From Candidatus Bathyarchaeota archaeon A05DMB-2 (lineage in GTDB: Archaea; Thermoproteota; Bathyarchaeia; Bathyarchaeales; Bathycorpusculaceae), in assembly GCA_018475625.1 (NCBI GenBank), contig JAAKEZ010000009.1, positions 1 to 64,000 on the forward strand: DNA of 64,000 bases, written 5' to 3'. The position numbers and the translations under genes are program-made. Below, piece after piece: positions 32,878 through 40,182 of this stretch. Each line of letters begins with the position of its first letter. The first letter of the stretch is position 1. The notes under the pieces were generated by a model. It saw nothing but the letters and a program-made list of their open reading frames with translations, ran no database searches and had not been told where the DNA came from.

Positions 32878-33966
32878 CTATTTAAGGTTTTCAGTTTTCG
32901 CCTCAGAAAGCGCGGTTTTCACTATGCCTATTAGCACATCTTTCAGGAAGGGGGGCAAATCAACAGACGCATATTCCGAAGCAGTAACGCCAGTTTGCTT
33001 GTTGAAGAACTCTCCGAACCGTTTACTCAACACATCTATTTGTCCAAACTCAGGCGGAACCAAACCTTTTTCAACGTCCTCGGCTATTTTCGCAGCCGCT
33101 AATATAACCGACGCTGCCAGCGGGTCGCTCCGCAAAATTCTAACCAAAATGGAGGCGATGGTTTTTTCGTCAACACCTATACTCTTAACCTTAGAAAGCT
33201 CCAAAGCCAACTTTTCAACAGACAAATGCATCTCTTTTAGTCTGCTGAAAATCGACCTGCAAGGCATGCACTCGTTCGCTTTCATAACCGCCTCTTTCAC
33301 GGCTTTCCGCGTACAGTACCCAACGAGTTGACCCAGTTCTGAAGCTGGACCAGCGTAAATTATCGGAGCACCGCGACCTGTCTCCGCAACAACCACAGCA
33401 TCTGTGACTGTTCCAGTGGCTTGGTCGCCTGAGAACCTGCTTCTGATGTCCAGTTCCTTTAGTGCTGCCACCTTAGCTTCGGTCGCTGTGATTACGGTGC
33501 TGACGAGGCAACTTTCAGTTGGGTTGCCATCTATGATAACTATTATGTTTATTGTCCCTTCGACGTGTTTGACTTCTATTGCTTCGCCTGCTGACTCAGC
33601 GAAGTTGCAAGTGTTGCCTTCGTTGTCCGCTGCGGTAGCGATAACGCTCACAGCAAGGTTTCCGTTTCTTTTTGAAACTAACGCAAAGTTTTCAATGGAT
33701 GCAGCGGTAACCATTCCGATGAAGTTTTCGTTGAGCCCAATTTTTTTTGAAAACTCAATTATGTAAGCATGAGGATTATCGTGTAAACTCTGGTCACTGC
33801 ATGATTTAGTGACCTCAACATTTAGTATCGCCTTGGTTTTTTTTATGCCGCCACCATTATGAAAAGCTGAACTGACCGTGTTAAGAGGTTCATCCGAGAT
33901 TACGGCCAGCACGTTTTCTTTGAGAACGAGTTTTATTCCTTTTCCTACGAGTTCAAATTGCGTCAT
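32878..33966 (-). CDS. cbiZ: Adenosylcobinamide amidohydrolase (CbiZ family)
   Basis: CbiZ cleaves the nucleotide-loop side of corrinoids to give adenosylcobyric acid for salvage or remodelling. Family features seen are SSAFHNGGG, ILNVEV, TGTVTDAVVVAETG and YAGPASELGQLVG with AVKEAV, which end the CbiZ domain near residue 235. A helical C-terminal extension of about 125 residues is added, with CMPC at its start. It sits five bases after the ferredoxin gene. It could recycle corrinoids for the CODH/ACS complex. Confidence 0.82.
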   Translation of the reverse strand: MTQFELVGKGIKLVLKENVLAVISDEPLNTVSSAFHNGGGIKKTKAILNVEVTKSCSDQSLHDNPHAYIIEFSKKIGLNENFIGMVTAASIENFALVSKRNGNLAVSVIATAADNEGNTCNFAESAGEAIEVKHVEGTINIIVIIDGNPTESCLVSTVITATEAKVAALKELDIRSRFSGDQATGTVTDAVVVAETGRGAPIIYAGPASELGQLVGYCTRKAVKEAVMKANECMPCRSIFSRLKEMHLSVEKLALELSKVKSIGVDEKTIASILVRILRSDPLAASVILAAAKIAEDVEKGLVPPEFGQIDVLSKRFGEFFNKQTGVTASEYASVDLPPFLKDVLIGIVKTALSEAKTENLK

Positions 33967-33970
33967 GGAT

Positions 33971-34201
33971 TCACCATTGTTTGTCTTTTGCTTGTTTGAT
34001 GCGTGTTACGGTTATGGCTTTTGTGGGACACAAGTATGCGCAGACACCGCATTGATTACATGAGGCAGCGTCTGTGGGTTCGGGTTTGCCATCTGAACCT
34101 TGTTCGAACACGCTTAAAGGGCAAACGCCGACGCAGATAAGCCATTGGCAAGGAGAACACTTTGCATAATCAATTAGAATAGGCGACCTGTGCGTGTCCA
34201 T
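33971..34201 (-). CDS. Two-cluster 4Fe-4S ferredoxin-like protein
   Basis: A 76-residue protein with CNQCGVCAYLCP, a standard 4Fe-4S motif, and a second site CSPCQWLICVGVCP in which two extra residues lie between the second and third Cys. The changed spacing may tune or lose one cluster. It heads the ferredoxin-cbiZ-paralogue 1 operon. It could feed electrons to corrinoid reduction; this is inference. Confidence 0.78.
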   Translation of the reverse strand: MDTHRSPILIDYAKCSPCQWLICVGVCPLSVFEQGSDGKPEPTDAASCNQCGVCAYLCPTKAITVTRIKQAKDKQW

Positions 34202-34262
34202 TGTGAATCAACAATTAAATAAGTCACGTGAATATATCTGTTGCGCGCATGAGGGACGAAAC

Positions 34263-35147
34263 ATGAAATTAGGATTAGTCACGTATGTTCCAGAAAAAGT
34301 AGAAGGCTTCGATATACACGTTTACTACTCTAAGTGGTCAGACGGTCAAGTTTTTCCGGCAGCAAATGGGATGCAGAATGATATTACATGTTTCTGTGAC
34401 GCCAAAGCTATCAGGGAAAACCCAAGTTTAGTGGCAGTTTCGAAGAATGGCCCGGCGTTGCGGAAGAACAGGAAAATTAACTTGGCGTTTGATTTTGTCT
34501 GTCCCACAAACCCGGAGTACAGGGCTAAAGTCTTTGACTACATCAAAGGGCTGAGTAAAGAGGGTATTCTGGGTGTGACTTTGAACCTTTACCATTTTCC
34601 AGAGGAAGAATTCTGTGTTTGTCCGCGGTGTGTGGAGCAGTGGCGACAAAGCGGACTAAACTGGACAGAATGGCGCGCAACAACAGTCACGGAATTTCTC
34701 AAAGAGGCGAAAAGGCTGGTCAAAGGCACCTTTGCGGTCGAGATGTACCCTGATCCAGTTCTTGCCAAGCAACGTTTCGGTATAGATTTTGAGCGCATCG
34801 CTGAGTTGGTGGATTACTTCCATGTTCCGCTTTCCGCGAGAGACTACACGACCATGTATTGGGTGGACATGCTGACGAGGGACTTCATTAAAATCCTGAA
34901 AAAACCTGTGGTTTTGGAACTGAGCGCGGAGATGCCGACTGACAAGAAGTTGGATGCTCTTCTGAAAACAGTGGCTTATGTTTCAAGGCACAACTTGATG
35001 GGTGTGCTGCTGCTGGTGCACGACTCGGAGAACGCGAAGCAGGTTTGCCGCTTCGCAGTGAAAAACACTAATTTCCGCGATTGGCTCACAAAATATGAGT
35101 TCACCGAAATGATAAAGATTGTGGATGGCTGGGCTAAGCTCTACTGA
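34263..35147 (+). CDS. TIM-barrel-like protein of unknown function, paralogue 2
   Basis: A 294-residue protein beginning MKLGLVTYVPEKVEGF, which lines up with MVTLKFGVFLYKP of paralogue 1. The ATG at 34263 has GAGG ahead of it; upstream starts would add unconserved residues. It has the same CVCPRCVEQW motif, identical at DNA level over 97 bases. It is divergent from the ferredoxin gene and lies inside the 91-bp inverted repeats. Confidence 0.7.
   Translation: MKLGLVTYVPEKVEGFDIHVYYSKWSDGQVFPAANGMQNDITCFCDAKAIRENPSLVAVSKNGPALRKNRKINLAFDFVCPTNPEYRAKVFDYIKGLSKEGILGVTLNLYHFPEEEFCVCPRCVEQWRQSGLNWTEWRATTVTEFLKEAKRLVKGTFAVEMYPDPVLAKQRFGIDFERIAELVDYFHVPLSARDYTTMYWVDMLTRDFIKILKKPVVLELSAEMPTDKKLDALLKTVAYVSRHNLMGVLLLVHDSENAKQVCRFAVKNTNFRDWLTKYEFTEMIKIVDGWAKLY
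34611..34707 (+). repeat. 97-bp tract identical to 32390-32486 (opposite strand)
   Basis: Partner copy of the tract in paralogue 1. Both lie about equally far from the centre of the island, so pairing of the two arms as an inverted repeat would align them. Confidence 0.85.
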
Positions 35148-35367: not shown

Positions 35368-36765
35368 TTGCTTCGGTGTGTCCGCTGTGGTACAGAATTC
35401 ACGACCTACCCTTTGAAGAGTGCTTGCGAGAAATGTGGAGGCATGCTGGAGTACGTTGCGGAGCAACCTAAGCGTGGAGAAATCGGGTTCTATGGATCTC
35501 TTGGGTTGTGGCGGTACCGGCAGGTGCTTCCGCCAGTTCAGCGCGTAATAAGCTTGGGGGAGGGTGGAACTCCTATTCACAGTGCTGAGAGACTCGCGAA
35601 ATCGGTTGGCTTAGAGGCTATTTTTTTGAAGGATGAAACTCGGAACCCGACGAATTCTTACAGAGACCGCGCGGCTGCCCTTCTCACGTCTAATGCTATA
35701 GACCTTGGTTTTGACACGTTGGTTTGTGCTTCGAATGGTAACATGGGCGCTTCTTTGGCGGCTTACTCCGCGAAGGCAGGGCTAATCTGTCACGTTATTG
35801 TTCCCAGAGTGGTGGATGTGGGGAAGTTGGCGCAGATGCTTGCTTATGACGCAGTTATCGAGGAATCAGGGGAAATCGTTGATGACTCAATTCGTAAGGC
35901 GCAGGCTTTGGCAGAGGAAACAGGCTGGTACCAAGCAACTGCGGAGCTTAATCCACTCGTGGTTGAGGCTCAAAAGACTATTTCCTACGAGGTTTATGAG
36001 CAGTTCGGCATTCCAGAATGGGTTGTGGTTTCCATGGGAAGCGGCGGCACCATCTACTCCATCTGGAAAGGTTTCAAGGAACTTAAGCAGCTTGGCTTTG
36101 CAGAAAGCTTGCCGAAGATGGTGGGGGTTCAGCCGGAAGGAAGCGCGGCAATAGTTAACGCGCTAGCTGAAGACCATGCTGAAGGTGTGAAGGTTTCGAA
36201 CCCTTTCACTCGTGCGCTCGCGATTTTGGTGGGTGAGCCCTTGCAAAGTGAGCTGGCTGTTAAGGCGATTAAGGAGTCGAGTGGGTTAGCGTTGGCAGTT
36301 TCTGACAAGGAGATTCTTGCCGCGGAACTTCAAATCGCGAAGTTGGAAGGGGTTTTCGCTGAACCCGCCAGTTCCGCCACGATAGCGGCGTTGAAAAAAC
36401 TCGTGGAAAGCGGCGGAATATCACGTGAAGCCAGCGTTTTATGTCTTATTACGGGAAGCGGTCTCAAAGCCACCGATGTGCTGCAGGCGTTGACTAAGAA
36501 GCAGAAGACGGCGGTTCTCGGATTGGAGATTAGCACCAAAGAAAAAATCCTGAGATCCTTGAGCAAGAAAGAGACTTACGGCTATGATTTGTGGATAAAG
36601 TTTGGAAAAATCATGACGCGGGCGGCTGTGTACCAACACCTGAATGAGTTATCGGAGAAGGGGTTGATTGTGGGTTACGAGAAGGGCGGGAAGAGATTCT
36701 TCAGGATAACAGAGCGGGGAAGAAAGGCGCTGCGGGCTATTGACGACCTGAAGCTTTTAATGTGA
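35368..36765 (+). CDS. Threonine-synthase-like protein lacking the PLP lysine, fused to a winged helix
   Basis: Residues 1-30 are a zinc ribbon (CVRCG, CEKCG). Residues 40-375 follow the PLP fold-type II threonine synthase: ISLGEGGTP, CASNGNMGASLAAY, SMGSGGT. The site that reads NPTGSFKDRG in ThrC reads NPTNSYRDRA, so the Schiff-base lysine is Arg99. Residues 380-465 form a PadR-like winged helix (TYGYDLWIKF, TRAAVYQHLNELSEKGLI). The TTG start follows GGGGAG. The design suggests a sensor-regulator, not an enzyme. It is directly upstream of a palindrome and an ECF transporter gene. Confidence 0.85.
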   Translation: MLRCVRCGTEFTTYPLKSACEKCGGMLEYVAEQPKRGEIGFYGSLGLWRYRQVLPPVQRVISLGEGGTPIHSAERLAKSVGLEAIFLKDETRNPTNSYRDRAAALLTSNAIDLGFDTLVCASNGNMGASLAAYSAKAGLICHVIVPRVVDVGKLAQMLAYDAVIEESGEIVDDSIRKAQALAEETGWYQATAELNPLVVEAQKTISYEVYEQFGIPEWVVVSMGSGGTIYSIWKGFKELKQLGFAESLPKMVGVQPEGSAAIVNALAEDHAEGVKVSNPFTRALAILVGEPLQSELAVKAIKESSGLALAVSDKEILAAELQIAKLEGVFAEPASSATIAALKKLVESGGISREASVLCLITGSGLKATDVLQALTKKQKTAVLGLEISTKEKILRSLSKKETYGYDLWIKFGKIMTRAAVYQHLNELSEKGLIVGYEKGGKRFFRITERGRKALRAIDDLKLLM

Positions 36766-36794
36766 TTTTTGTCGGCTCGGCTGAAAAGTTTTAT

Positions 36795-36816
36795 TAGTAT
36801 AGTTGCAACTATACTA
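36795..36816. promoter_or_regulatory. 22-bp perfect palindrome before the ECF transporter gene
   Basis: The core AGTATAGTTGCAACTATACT is perfectly symmetric and extends by one base pair on each side. It sits 19 bases before the likely ATG and overlaps a TATA-like region. It is the right size for a dimeric winged-helix regulator, and the nearest candidate is the C-terminal domain of the gene just upstream. Confidence 0.7.
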
Positions 36817-36834
36817 TCGAAAATGGTGAAACAC

Positions 36835-37539
36835 ATGGACACAGGGAAACTAACAAAGATATCAATCTTCACAGCCTTAGTTTTCGTAGCCACATTTATC
36901 ATAAGAGTCCCAATAGCCGCCACAGGAGGATACTTCAACCTCGGCGACAGCGCAATCTACGTGGCTGCACTGCTGTTCGGTCCTCTCGTCGGCGGACTAG
37001 CCGGAGGAATAGGCGCAGCAATCGCCGACATCATAGGCTACCCAATCTTTGCCCCCGGCACCCTCATCATAAAACTCTTCGAAGGAGCAGTAACTGGCTA
37101 TGCAGGAAACAGACTTCGTTCACAAACCAAGAGAGTAATTTTATGGAGAGCTTTATCGGTCGTGTTAGGCTCGGGTTTAGGAGCCGCCACCTACTACATT
37201 GGCACGAACTACATGGCAATATTCGGAAACGCCCAGTTAGATCAAGCGGTATGGGCTGCCGTGGCCCTGTTCTTAGGCGCCTTCATCATCCTCCTGAGCT
37301 TTATGCCTCAAACCCAAACAAGCTGGCAAACCACCAGTATCATCATGGGAGGCGCAACCATGGTGGCGGGCTACTTCATTTATGAGAATCTTCTCGCCGC
37401 TCTTATTCCAGCCTTGGGAATCTTTGCACTCGGCGAAATCCCAGCCAACATCGGTCAGATGCTGGTGGGGATGACGATTGCGTTGCCAGTGCTTAGAGCG
37501 GTGCAGAGGGTACTGCCTCCTGAGCAAAGAGGACTGTAA
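36835..37539 (+). CDS. ECF transporter S component (vitamin-type substrate)
   Basis: Membrane protein with about six helices. The signatures TGGYFNLGDSAIYVAALLFG, GGLAGGIGAAIADIIGYP and IKLFEGAVTGY are typical of S components that bind a vitamin and use a shared ATPase module. The substrate (riboflavin, a B6 vitamer, a thiamine precursor or other) cannot be read. The ATG at 36835 is preferred since starts further up would run through the palindrome; an ATG at 36823 is possible. Confidence 0.88.
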   Translation: MDTGKLTKISIFTALVFVATFIIRVPIAATGGYFNLGDSAIYVAALLFGPLVGGLAGGIGAAIADIIGYPIFAPGTLIIKLFEGAVTGYAGNRLRSQTKRVILWRALSVVLGSGLGAATYYIGTNYMAIFGNAQLDQAVWAAVALFLGAFIILLSFMPQTQTSWQTTSIIMGGATMVAGYFIYENLLAALIPALGIFALGEIPANIGQMLVGMTIALPVLRAVQRVLPPEQRGL

Positions 37540-37589: not shown

Positions 37590-38600
37590 ATGTCGCGGTT
37601 GCCGCCGGGAAAAATTCCAATAGACATCCTTAAAGAGGTTGTTTTTAAGAACTTGGGCGCTGAGCGTAAAGAAGTCACCGTTGGTCCGCAGGCTGGAATT
37701 GACGGCGCCGTTTTAGACTTCGGAGAAAAATCAGCGATTGTTTCAATGGACCCTATCACTGGCGCGGTTGAGCGAATCGGCTGGCTCGCCGTGAACGTAA
37801 ACGCAAATGACATCGCCACCTTCGGCGTTGAACCCGCGTTCCTCTTCTCATGCATGCTACTTCCCGAGGGCGCGGACAAAAAACTTGTCGAAGTCATAAG
37901 CACTCAGATGGGCGCGGCGGCAAATGAGTTGGGCGTAGCCATCGTGGGCGGTCACTGCGAATCCACGCCCGGTTTAGCCAACCCGATAGTCGTGTGCTGT
38001 ATTATGGGCTTAACTGAAAAGGGCTGTTACGTGACCGCTGGCGGCGCAAAAAAAGGCGACAAGCTCATCTTAACCAAAAGCGCGGGCATAGAAGGCACGG
38101 CAATCTTGGCGACTGACAGAGAGAAAGAACTCCAAAATACCCTAAGCGCTTCAGTGCTTAGGAACGCCAAAAGCTTCTGGAACCAGATAAGCGTTGTCAA
38201 AGACGCCTTGACCGCGTACCGAACGGGTGGCGTGCACGCTATGCATGACCCCACTGAAGGCGGTGTGGCTGGCGGAATACATGAAATCGCAGATGCCTCA
38301 AGCCTCGGCGTAAAAGTCTATGAAGAAGCAATCAGCGTGCAGCTTGAGACCGCAGATATTTGTCGCCACTTCAAGATTGACCCGCTGCAGCTGATAAGTT
38401 CAGGCGCCCTGCTCATTTCCGCTGAACCGCAACGTGCAAACGAGATAGTTGGGAGCTTGAAGTTCCAGGGAATTCAAGCTTCGGTTATCGGCGAATTCTT
38501 GGAAAACGCAGATGAGCGGGTGCTGATACGCAGAGGTGGCGGAGTAGAGGTTTTGCCGCGACCTGCCTCGGATAATCTTTGGACGGCGTTAATGCGATGA
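37590..38600 (+). CDS. AIR synthase-related protein (PurM/HypE/ThiL superfamily)
   Basis: A 336-residue protein with the superfamily order: DGAVLDFGEKSAIVSMDP, VNVNANDIATFGVEPAF, IVGGHCESTP and AMHDPTEGGVAGGIHEIA. Members bind ATP and phosphorylate or dehydrate a substrate. GAGGAAG precedes the ATG. It follows the ECF gene and might act on the imported compound. It is not a normal purM, as the N-terminal glycine-rich loop differs. Confidence 0.83.
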   Translation: MSRLPPGKIPIDILKEVVFKNLGAERKEVTVGPQAGIDGAVLDFGEKSAIVSMDPITGAVERIGWLAVNVNANDIATFGVEPAFLFSCMLLPEGADKKLVEVISTQMGAAANELGVAIVGGHCESTPGLANPIVVCCIMGLTEKGCYVTAGGAKKGDKLILTKSAGIEGTAILATDREKELQNTLSASVLRNAKSFWNQISVVKDALTAYRTGGVHAMHDPTEGGVAGGIHEIADASSLGVKVYEEAISVQLETADICRHFKIDPLQLISSGALLISAEPQRANEIVGSLKFQGIQASVIGEFLENADERVLIRRGGGVEVLPRPASDNLWTALMR

Positions 38601-39344
38601 AAAGGATCTTGCGCCTTGGAGAGCGAACTGGACGAACCAGTAGAACATGAAAAACGGGTAGTAAAACATGTACTCAACCATGTGTGAATAGATCAGTCCG
38701 CAGCGGAATTCAATGATGGCTTGGGACACGCCGTTTTGTAGGCTCCAGTTTCCAGGCGCCTTGAAATGTAAGCAGTAAATGTCGTCGCCTATGACGGTTC
38801 TGTATCCTCGCCCTTTAATCCAGTTGATAATGTAGCTGTCTTCATAAGCGTGCAGCTCCTCTGGAATCTCGATGCCCTGCACCGCATCGCGGCGGATAAG
38901 CGTGTCGTGCATTCCGCCTCTGAGACCGAAACACTGCCTCGCGATTAAGCTCTGAAATTTTATGATGCGCTTGTCCTTGACGTTGGGGATGACATCGATG
39001 TTTATTCCCCAGACCGCGCCTACATCTTTGTCCACGTACCGCTGCGCTTTTCGGTACCAGTCCCTGCAAAGAACCACATCGCTGTCAACAAACATAAACA
39101 GCTCGGTGGTCACTTGTGCGATGCCTCTTTGCCGCGCCTTGGCTCTTGAGCCGTCTACCTTTAGGACTTTGACGTTGCCGAACTTCTGTTTGACACGGTT
39201 CACGATTTCCATGGTGCCGTCGTTTGAAAAGCCATCAACAATTATGAGATTGTTGACGGGCACGCTCTCAAAAATCGAGGCTAAACACTTGTCAAGCAGG
39301 TGTTCACTGTTCTTCGTGAGCAACACAACATCGACTGCCTGCAT
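38589..39344 (-). CDS. Family 2 glycosyltransferase, paralogue 1
   Basis: GT-A fold: VDVVLLTKNSEHLL, IIVDGFSNDGT, FVDSDVVLCRDW (DxD). A hydrophobic C-terminal segment (MFYYPFFMFYWFVQFALQG) may bind the membrane. Likely adds a sugar to a lipid-linked or surface glycan. The gene at 39445 is its tandem paralogue. It overlaps the convergent AIR synthase-like gene by 12 bases. Confidence 0.85.
   Translation of the reverse strand: MQAVDVVLLTKNSEHLLDKCLASIFESVPVNNLIIVDGFSNDGTMEIVNRVKQKFGNVKVLKVDGSRAKARQRGIAQVTTELFMFVDSDVVLCRDWYRKAQRYVDKDVGAVWGINIDVIPNVKDKRIIKFQSLIARQCFGLRGGMHDTLIRRDAVQGIEIPEELHAYEDSYIINWIKGRGYRTVIGDDIYCLHFKAPGNWSLQNGVSQAIIEFRCGLIYSHMVEYMFYYPFFMFYWFVQFALQGARSFSSH
39004..39099. repeat. 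96-bp tract identical to 39842-39937
   Basis: Codes for FMFVDSDVV to VGAVWGI, which includes the DxD site, in both tandem glycosyltransferases. The match is perfect for 96 bases in the same orientation, while flanks are diverged. Points to recent gene conversion. Confidence 0.85.
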
Positions 39345-39444
39345 TCATGGTCGCCTCAGCGTTTCCGCCTGCTTAAGCCTATAAGTGCATGATATTCGGG
39401 TAGTATATAAAAATGTGAACCAATTCACGGAACGCAAGCGGAGA

Positions 39445-40182
39445 CTAAGCCTCGTTTTTCCTATTTGAAAGTAGCTGATACATAGAGTAGACGGCGTAAA
39501 AACCGTAAGCAAGAATCAGTTTCCCAATCAAACTTGAGCTACCGCATCTGACGGCGTCCGCGATTATGCTTAAGCTGCCCTTCAGAGTCCAGACGGTTTC
39601 AGGTCTAAAGTGGATGCAATAGGGGTCATAGCAGGGAACGCACCTGTAGCCTTTTTTGTTTATCCAATCTTTGATGTAAGCGTCCTCAAAAACATGCAGG
39701 TCTGCGGGGATTTTGATGTCCTTAACCAGTTTCGTGCGCAAGAGGGTGTCGTGGGTTCCGCCGCGCAGTTCGAATATTTTACGGGTTACCCAAAGGAACA
39801 TTTTCAGCGTCGCCCGCTTCCTGATGGTTGACCAGACCTCGATTCCCCAGACCGCGCCTACATCTTTGTCCACGTACCGCTGCGCTTTTCGGTACCAGTC
39901 CCTGCAAAGAACCACATCGCTGTCAACAAACATAAACCACTCCGTCTCAACGTTCTCGATGCCTTTCTGCCGAGCAGTGGCTCTGGTTCCGCGGTCAGTG
40001 ATGACTTTTACGTTGTGGAATTTTTCGTCAAAACGACGAAGTACCCCAAGCGTCCCATCCACGGAACCGCCATCCACGACTATCAACTGCCCAACAGGAA
40101 TGTTCTGATAGACCGAGGTGAGACACCTTTCTAGAACCTCCTCGCTGTTCTTCGTCAGCAGCACTACATCTACGGGGTACAT
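39445..40182 (-). CDS. Family 2 glycosyltransferase, paralogue 2
   Basis: A 245-residue GT-A enzyme with VDVVLLTKNSEEVL, IVVDGGSVDGT and FVDSDVVLCRDW. Close in layout to the gene at 38589, and identical at DNA level over 39842-39937. A C-terminal hydrophobic stretch (LILAYGFYAVYSMYQ) suggests membrane contact. The two genes probably arose by tandem duplication. Confidence 0.85.
   Translation of the reverse strand: MYPVDVVLLTKNSEEVLERCLTSVYQNIPVGQLIVVDGGSVDGTLGVLRRFDEKFHNVKVITDRGTRATARQKGIENVETEWFMFVDSDVVLCRDWYRKAQRYVDKDVGAVWGIEVWSTIRKRATLKMFLWVTRKIFELRGGTHDTLLRTKLVKDIKIPADLHVFEDAYIKDWINKKGYRCVPCYDPYCIHFRPETVWTLKGSLSIIADAVRCGSSSLIGKLILAYGFYAVYSMYQLLSNRKNEA

Follow-up and report, generated by a model that had tools for sequence, protein, structure and literature searches.

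A degenerate threonine synthase fused to a winged helix as a probable vitamin B6-sensing regulator of an ECF transporter gene in Bathyarchaeota

In a contig of Candidatus Bathyarchaeota archaeon A05DMB-2, of which we analysed a stretch of 64,000 nucleotides (in the following called the window), a gene for a protein with the fold of a threonine synthase lies directly in front of a gene for the S component of an ECF transporter. Does this protein act as an enzyme or does it control the transporter gene, and if it is a regulator, which ligand does it respond to? The original prediction saw in it a possible sensor-regulator with a PLP fold that controls an ECF vitamin transporter. This proposal is strongly supported by our analysis, although binding data do not exist: the arginine in place of the catalytic lysine, the fusion to a winged helix, the adjacency to the ECF gene and an operator-like palindrome are all conserved, and the latter stays with the ECF gene. 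We are confident that the protein, called TSR here, is a transcription factor that derives from a duplicated threonine synthase (ThrC) and that has lost catalysis while much of the PLP site was left. The features of the locus are collected in Table 1.

Table 1. Features of the TSR locus, in positions of the window; residue ranges refer to TSR.
Feature	Position	Strand	Remarks
Regulator gene (TSR)	35368..36765	+	465 aa; zinc ribbon, degenerate threonine-synthase domain, C-terminal winged helix
Zinc-ribbon cysteines C4, C7, C20, C23 (N-terminal)	35377..35436	+	Invariant over 53 diverse relatives
Degenerate threonine-synthase domain			About residues 48-371
Codon AGA for Arg99, replacing the PLP-binding lysine	35662..35664	+	Aligned with Lys61 of T. 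thermophilus ThrC (1uim)
Residues 192-198 (AELNPLV), replacing N154-S155...R160 of ThrC	35941..35961	+	Alignment with 1uim; group comparison
C-terminal winged helix			About residues 390-465
PadR-like winged helix	36535..36762	+	Pfam PF03551 at residues 394-456; secondary structure in AF2 model
A/T-rich, TATA-box-like stretch just before the operator	36784..36794	+	A/T-rich here in 34 aligned loci; role inferred
Putative operator, 22-bp perfect palindrome TAGTATAGTTGCAACTATACTA	36795..36816	.	29 nt after the regulator stop
ECF transporter S component, predicted B6 vitamer uptake	36835..37539	+	PF07155
AIR-synthase/ThiL/HypE-like protein (AIRS), third gene of the conserved cluster	37590..38600	+	AIRS Pfam domains; synteny

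The regulator reading frame matched the Pfam families PALP (2.2e-73) and PadR (4.3e-08). An alignment-based AF2 model reached a mean pLDDT of 89.7 and consisted of two well predicted domains that were connected by a low-confidence linker (residues 368-387). When the enzyme-like domain was compared with solved structures using Foldseek, the best match was a threonine synthase (6nmx); 6nmx and 1v7c were both matched with a TM of 0.86 on the target. With the ThrC of its own genome TSR shares about 38% identity.

While TSR has the fold and the zinc ribbon in common with ThrC and with the model NF004170 'threonine synthase', it differs from the enzyme by the absence of the PLP lysine and of the phosphohomoserine phosphate contacts, by the additional winged helix and by the gene context. 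A replacement of the PLP lysine by Arg99 and a fused PadR-like winged helix had been claimed, and both were borne out by the alignment with 1uim and by the PALP and PadR matches. The taxonomic family provided 30 orthologs, which share 58-92% identity with TSR of the window; 29 of them have Arg at residue 99 and one has Met. A192, E193 and V198 of TSR occupy the places of N154, S155 and R160 of the T. thermophilus enzyme, which we take to be the contacts of the phosphate of the substrate phosphohomoserine. This is seen as a contrast between the motif NP[FY]R[LI]EGQK in ThrC and NPLV[VI]EAQK in the regulator, and the phosphate-contact Arg was gone from all fused clades examined. Other parts of the site were retained, namely an invariant Asn125, a glycine-rich stretch GSGGT for GNAGN, which is presumably phosphate-loop-like, and in most cases Thr362, presumably on the side of the pyridine nitrogen. 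A true ThrC that carries the lysine is present in the same genome (L002), where it is located between homoserine dehydrogenase and a homoserine-kinase-like gene.

The gene downstream of TSR matched PF07155 with 9.9e-32 and 110.7 bits, which meets the gathering score of 26.7 bits. Its start is most likely the ATG at 36835 and not at 36769, and a close relative (L034) has an ATG at the same place. With this start the palindrome lies outside of the coding sequence. The span first assigned to the system (35368-37539) contained a real ECF S gene, while a start of this gene at 36769 is unlikely and the third gene of the cluster was omitted. The order regulator, ECF S, AIRS was kept in 33/36 loci of the family; the three exceptions were a contig end, a scrambled locus and one other arrangement. 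A conservation of the Arg and of the fusion together with ECF genes, suggested earlier as a check, was thus found. One locus (L068 of G087) carries a disrupted regulator gene next to scrambled ECF and AIRS genes.

ECF S components import vitamins. The nearest solved chain to the S component of the window was HmpT of L. brevis (4hzu_S, E 4.1e-07), for which bound pyridoxamine has been shown (PMC4860826). Glu41 of HmpT is matched by a conserved acidic residue, whereas His84 aligns with a conserved Lys, such that the exact vitamer may differ; given the weak similarity, the assignment of the vitamer is provisional. Elsewhere the genome encodes EcfT-type proteins that would serve a shared ECF module. 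For the AIRS protein both the HypE and the ThiL model stayed below their cutoffs, with HypE scoring better, and its end lacks the C-terminal Cys that HypE carries. By analogy to the bacterial pdxR-pdxKU arrangement (PMC11619246) it may be a B6 vitamer kinase, an activity that is inferred. Many regulator-bearing genomes, including that of the window, have no strong match to PF08543 (PdxK/ThiD-type kinase). Since the AIRS gene is present with or without such a match, the absence of the match provides no test of the kinase role.

Further genes surround the cluster. A CbiZ-type adenosylcobinamide amidohydrolase (32878-33966, PF01955, 4.3e-45) suggests corrinoid salvage nearby. The 317-aa protein encoded at 34194-35147 has no Pfam match, and a copy with 39% identity lies on the opposite strand, roughly 2.5 kb ahead of the regulator. 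Two similar glycosyltransferase-like genes are arranged in tandem on the minus strand at 38589-40182.

The predicted 22-bp palindrome about 30 bases past the regulator and ahead of the ECF S gene was confirmed in position and length (Table 1). Allowing up to 3 mismatches it was the sole site in the 64 kb, while shuffles gave 0.00. A site matching TAGTATAGTTnnAACTATACTA was located between regulator and ECF S gene, just past the TATA-like box, in nearly all loci of the family. When counting sites with at most 2 mismatches over 91 family genomes, we found them in 33/36 genomes with the regulator compared to 2/55 without it (Fisher p 6e-19, uncorrected for phylogeny). Two rearranged loci are informative about the gene to which the site belongs. 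In G289, where an unrelated gene splits regulator and ECF gene, a perfect site is found 1,144 nt downstream, directly before the ECF gene. Similarly, in G075 the site is located at 516 nt, ahead of the displaced ECF gene. No operator was found where no ECF gene follows the regulator (L225 and L226; G427 and G437), and in G046 a second, unlinked ECF S paralog has a perfect operator in front. As judged from its sequence context, without binding data, the palindrome is the putative operator, and it goes with the transporter gene and not with the regulator. A role as terminator of the regulator gene was considered and rejected, since the palindrome stays with the ECF gene when the genes are separated and also occurs before pdxS. 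In three loci (L046, L051 and L067 from G018, G025 and G014, respectively) a second half or full operator directly follows the first, before the ECF gene. Such doubled operators suggest cooperative binding, for which binding data are lacking as well.

The occurrence of the site before pdxS, the gene of PLP synthase, provides information about the ligand. Of the 91 family genomes only two, G018 and G025, have a PdxS above cutoff, and each of them possesses the regulator. Two more cases were found in genomes of the same order (G338 and G140). These four are all Bathyarchaeia pdxS genes found in regulator-bearing genomes. For each of them the best site of the locus was positioned directly upstream of pdxS, with scores of 37.6, 10.9, 15.1 and 17.6 bits. 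The matrix used was built from ECF-linked sites only, and such scores were reached by 1/389,623 background positions.

A distant clade (36-39% identity), in which the Lys is replaced by Leu, Ile, Val, Met or Thr, has a motif of its own, ATATATAAGTTTCAGCCTATATATAGG, in the divergent promoter between regulator and ECF gene. In G120 this motif is present in the promoter between regulator and pdxS, which are arranged head-to-head; as this site helped to build the clade's matrix, it is not independent of it. In G112, the site of which was left out of the matrix, a clear match was found upstream of pdxS (0/414,156 background positions). Over both clades the clade's own operator was directly upstream in 6/6 testable pdxS genes of regulator-bearing genomes; the pdxS of G136 is outside this count, its contig starting inside or at the gene. 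At the sequence level the operator at pdxS is thus established, as are the fold, the fusion, the loss of catalytic residues, the synteny and the operator at the ECF gene. In the window genome neither PdxS nor PdxJ was found, such that the organism should be a B6 auxotroph that depends on uptake. As ligand either a B6 vitamer or an amino acid had been envisaged. The first is favoured by the operators before pdxS in several lineages and by regulators beside pdxS or pdxST, while the second is disfavoured. TSR is very probably a transcription factor that senses B6, probably PLP, with ligand binding being inferred.

Similar systems were found beyond these clades. In a clade that we read as Desulfurococcales-like, genes for ECF S and EcfA come after that of the regulator, and the motif is CTTAAAGTnnAAACTTTAAG. 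One genome (G133) has a fuller set after the regulator, including a membrane protein without Pfam match that may be EcfT, and another (G238) has near-identical sites before the ECF gene and before pdxST. Four other genomes of this group with pdxST (G193, G187, G269 and G376) encode a second, shorter ThrC-like protein directly downstream of pdxT. In G264 such a gene adjoins pdxS, and in G441 the start of one is seen before the contig end. In the shorter proteins (L291-L295, from the four genomes and G264) the Lys is replaced by Ser or Ala, and a C-terminal HTH-like stretch is present, for which we found no Pfam match. They likely form a second branch of B6 regulators next to pdxS or pdxT.

Relatives with Lys at this site and full ThrC activity would have refuted the prediction. 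Lys is indeed present in one Bathyarchaeota clade of about 50% identity (L154-L160, L162, L169 and L173), but the phosphate-contact Arg is missing in all of its members, and in three of them (L157-L159) an ECF gene is preceded by a similar site. The clade is nested among Arg-bearing proteins in a maximum-likelihood tree (support 100/99), and its Lys is for this reason best read as a return from Arg. A Schiff base with PLP is possible for these proteins. Arg is also present in orthologs from Freyarchaeota, Jordarchaeum, Baldrarchaeota, Odinarchaeota and Methanomethylicia. Members of the regulator family are found across Thermoproteota and Asgard archaea, and NCBI lists part of them under the name 'threonine synthase'. 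In the neighbourhood of some relatives, from Asgard archaea and several Bathyarchaeota, an ECF gene is missing.

How would TSR act on its target genes? Very probably, though by inference, the enzyme-like domain would hold PLP, or a B6 vitamer close to it, in what is left of the active site, with no Schiff base being formed, and the ligand state would be passed on to the winged helix, by which a TSR dimer would bind the palindrome. With plentiful PLP, B6 uptake by the ECF S component and, where pdxS exists, synthesis would be turned off, while the ECF and pdxS genes would be expressed once PLP falls. The operator extends from the TATA-like box to within a few bases of the ECF start codon, and this position favours repression with PLP as co-repressor. 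TSR is thus most likely a repressor, a direction of control that we infer from a promoter position read from the sequence only. PLP as ligand, dimer binding and co-repression remain inferences without binding or expression data. A B6 regulator could also work in the opposite direction, with the apo-form as activator and PLP as anti-activator. PdxR of several bacteria acts in this manner (PMC5320631, PMC11619246), including in comparable loci (PMC11619246). We consider this unlikely for TSR, because an operator that runs from the TATA-like box towards the start codon occupies a place where RNA polymerase would be hindered, which is itself an inference.

Less plausible still is a sensor of threonine, phosphohomoserine or another amino acid with an S component that imports something tied to amino-acid supply, even though TSR derives from ThrC and the regulator divergently adjoins a true ThrC in family f2. 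The residues that hold the phosphate of phosphohomoserine are lost, operators sit at pdxS, and the import of vitamins by S components as well as the pyridoxamine in the nearest solved one do not fit with such a ligand. The spacer between ThrC and regulator in family f2 contains no site, such that an operator serving ThrC was rejected there.

We give slightly less credit to thiamine or its pyrimidine (HMP) as the sensed compound. The AIRS protein resembles ThiL, the thiamine-phosphate kinase, and HMP was at one time the substrate assumed for HmpT-type S components. However, AIRS matches the HypE model with a better score than the ThiL model and reaches neither cutoff, HmpT holds pyridoxamine, and operators precede pdxS in several lineages.

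Finally, by the name of NF004170 (PRK05638) TSR would be a functional threonine synthase to which a domain for DNA binding or oligomerisation has been added; this model covers residues 2-457 (387.6 bits, under the curated cutoff of 421, which some relatives exceed) and TIGR00260 is above its cutoff, but we find this hardly tenable for a protein without catalytic lysine and phosphate-contact residues, in a genome with a separate ThrC, the more so as Arg and a place in ECF operons are shared by the best NF004170 matches found. The best of all, the protein of G133, reached 700 bits with Arg at the lysine site, inside an ECF operon. The same combination of Arg and ECF transporter operon was seen for the best matches L252/L277 (from G133), L253 and L259. 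The name 'threonine synthase' of this model is probably wrong.

Our preferred reading, a ThrC-derived repressor of ECF S and pdxS genes that senses B6 in the form of PLP, has in our judgement a high probability as a whole. It belongs to a known kind, vitamin sensors in which an enzyme fold is joined to a winged helix, and what is new is the fold used for B6. ThiR and RbkR of archaea likewise combine an enzyme-derived sensor domain with a winged helix and control vitamin uptake or synthesis; unlike in TSR, their sensors come from ThiN and riboflavin kinase and their ligands are thiamine and flavin compounds. Bacterial PdxR, a MocR factor, also joins a winged helix to a PLP-enzyme fold. It controls pdxST, pdxK and pdxU and binds repeated DNA boxes (PMC5320631, PMC11619246). 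For TSR the evidence on target genes, namely the operators at ECF S and pdxS, is one of association. Its architecture, however, is an N-terminal GntR-type winged helix with a fold-type I aminotransferase domain, whereas TSR has a C-terminal PadR-like one and the threonine-synthase fold (fold type II); Pfam matches for a GntR-type winged helix or a fold-type I aminotransferase domain were not obtained in TSR. MocR factors are reported to be absent from Archaea (PMC5320631). In the open literature searched we found neither an archaeal B6 regulator nor a ThrC-PadR fusion; subscription papers were not covered, and this absence is not a proof.

For many prokaryotes it has been stated that B6 transporters and some B6 kinases have yet to be identified (PMC9997740). 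The locus offers a concrete archaeal B6 regulator with its operator, a predicted B6 transporter and a candidate for a kinase. It would be a second, independent instance of a PLP enzyme fold that came to regulate the supply of PLP. It also draws attention to an NCBI 'threonine synthase' model the top members of which here lack the catalytic lysine. A broader proposal, which we put forward only tentatively and with more doubt than trust, is that Thermoproteota and Asgard archaea possess PLP-sensing repressors from ThrC in which the Lys was replaced by Arg, Leu, Ile, Val, Met, Thr, Phe, Ser or Ala, and that AIRS represents a new type of B6 kinase. If true, the many replacements of the PLP lysine would mean that PLP sensing needs no Schiff base, and the cluster would be a complete archaeal unit of regulator, transporter and kinase, like the bacterial pdxR-pdxKU.
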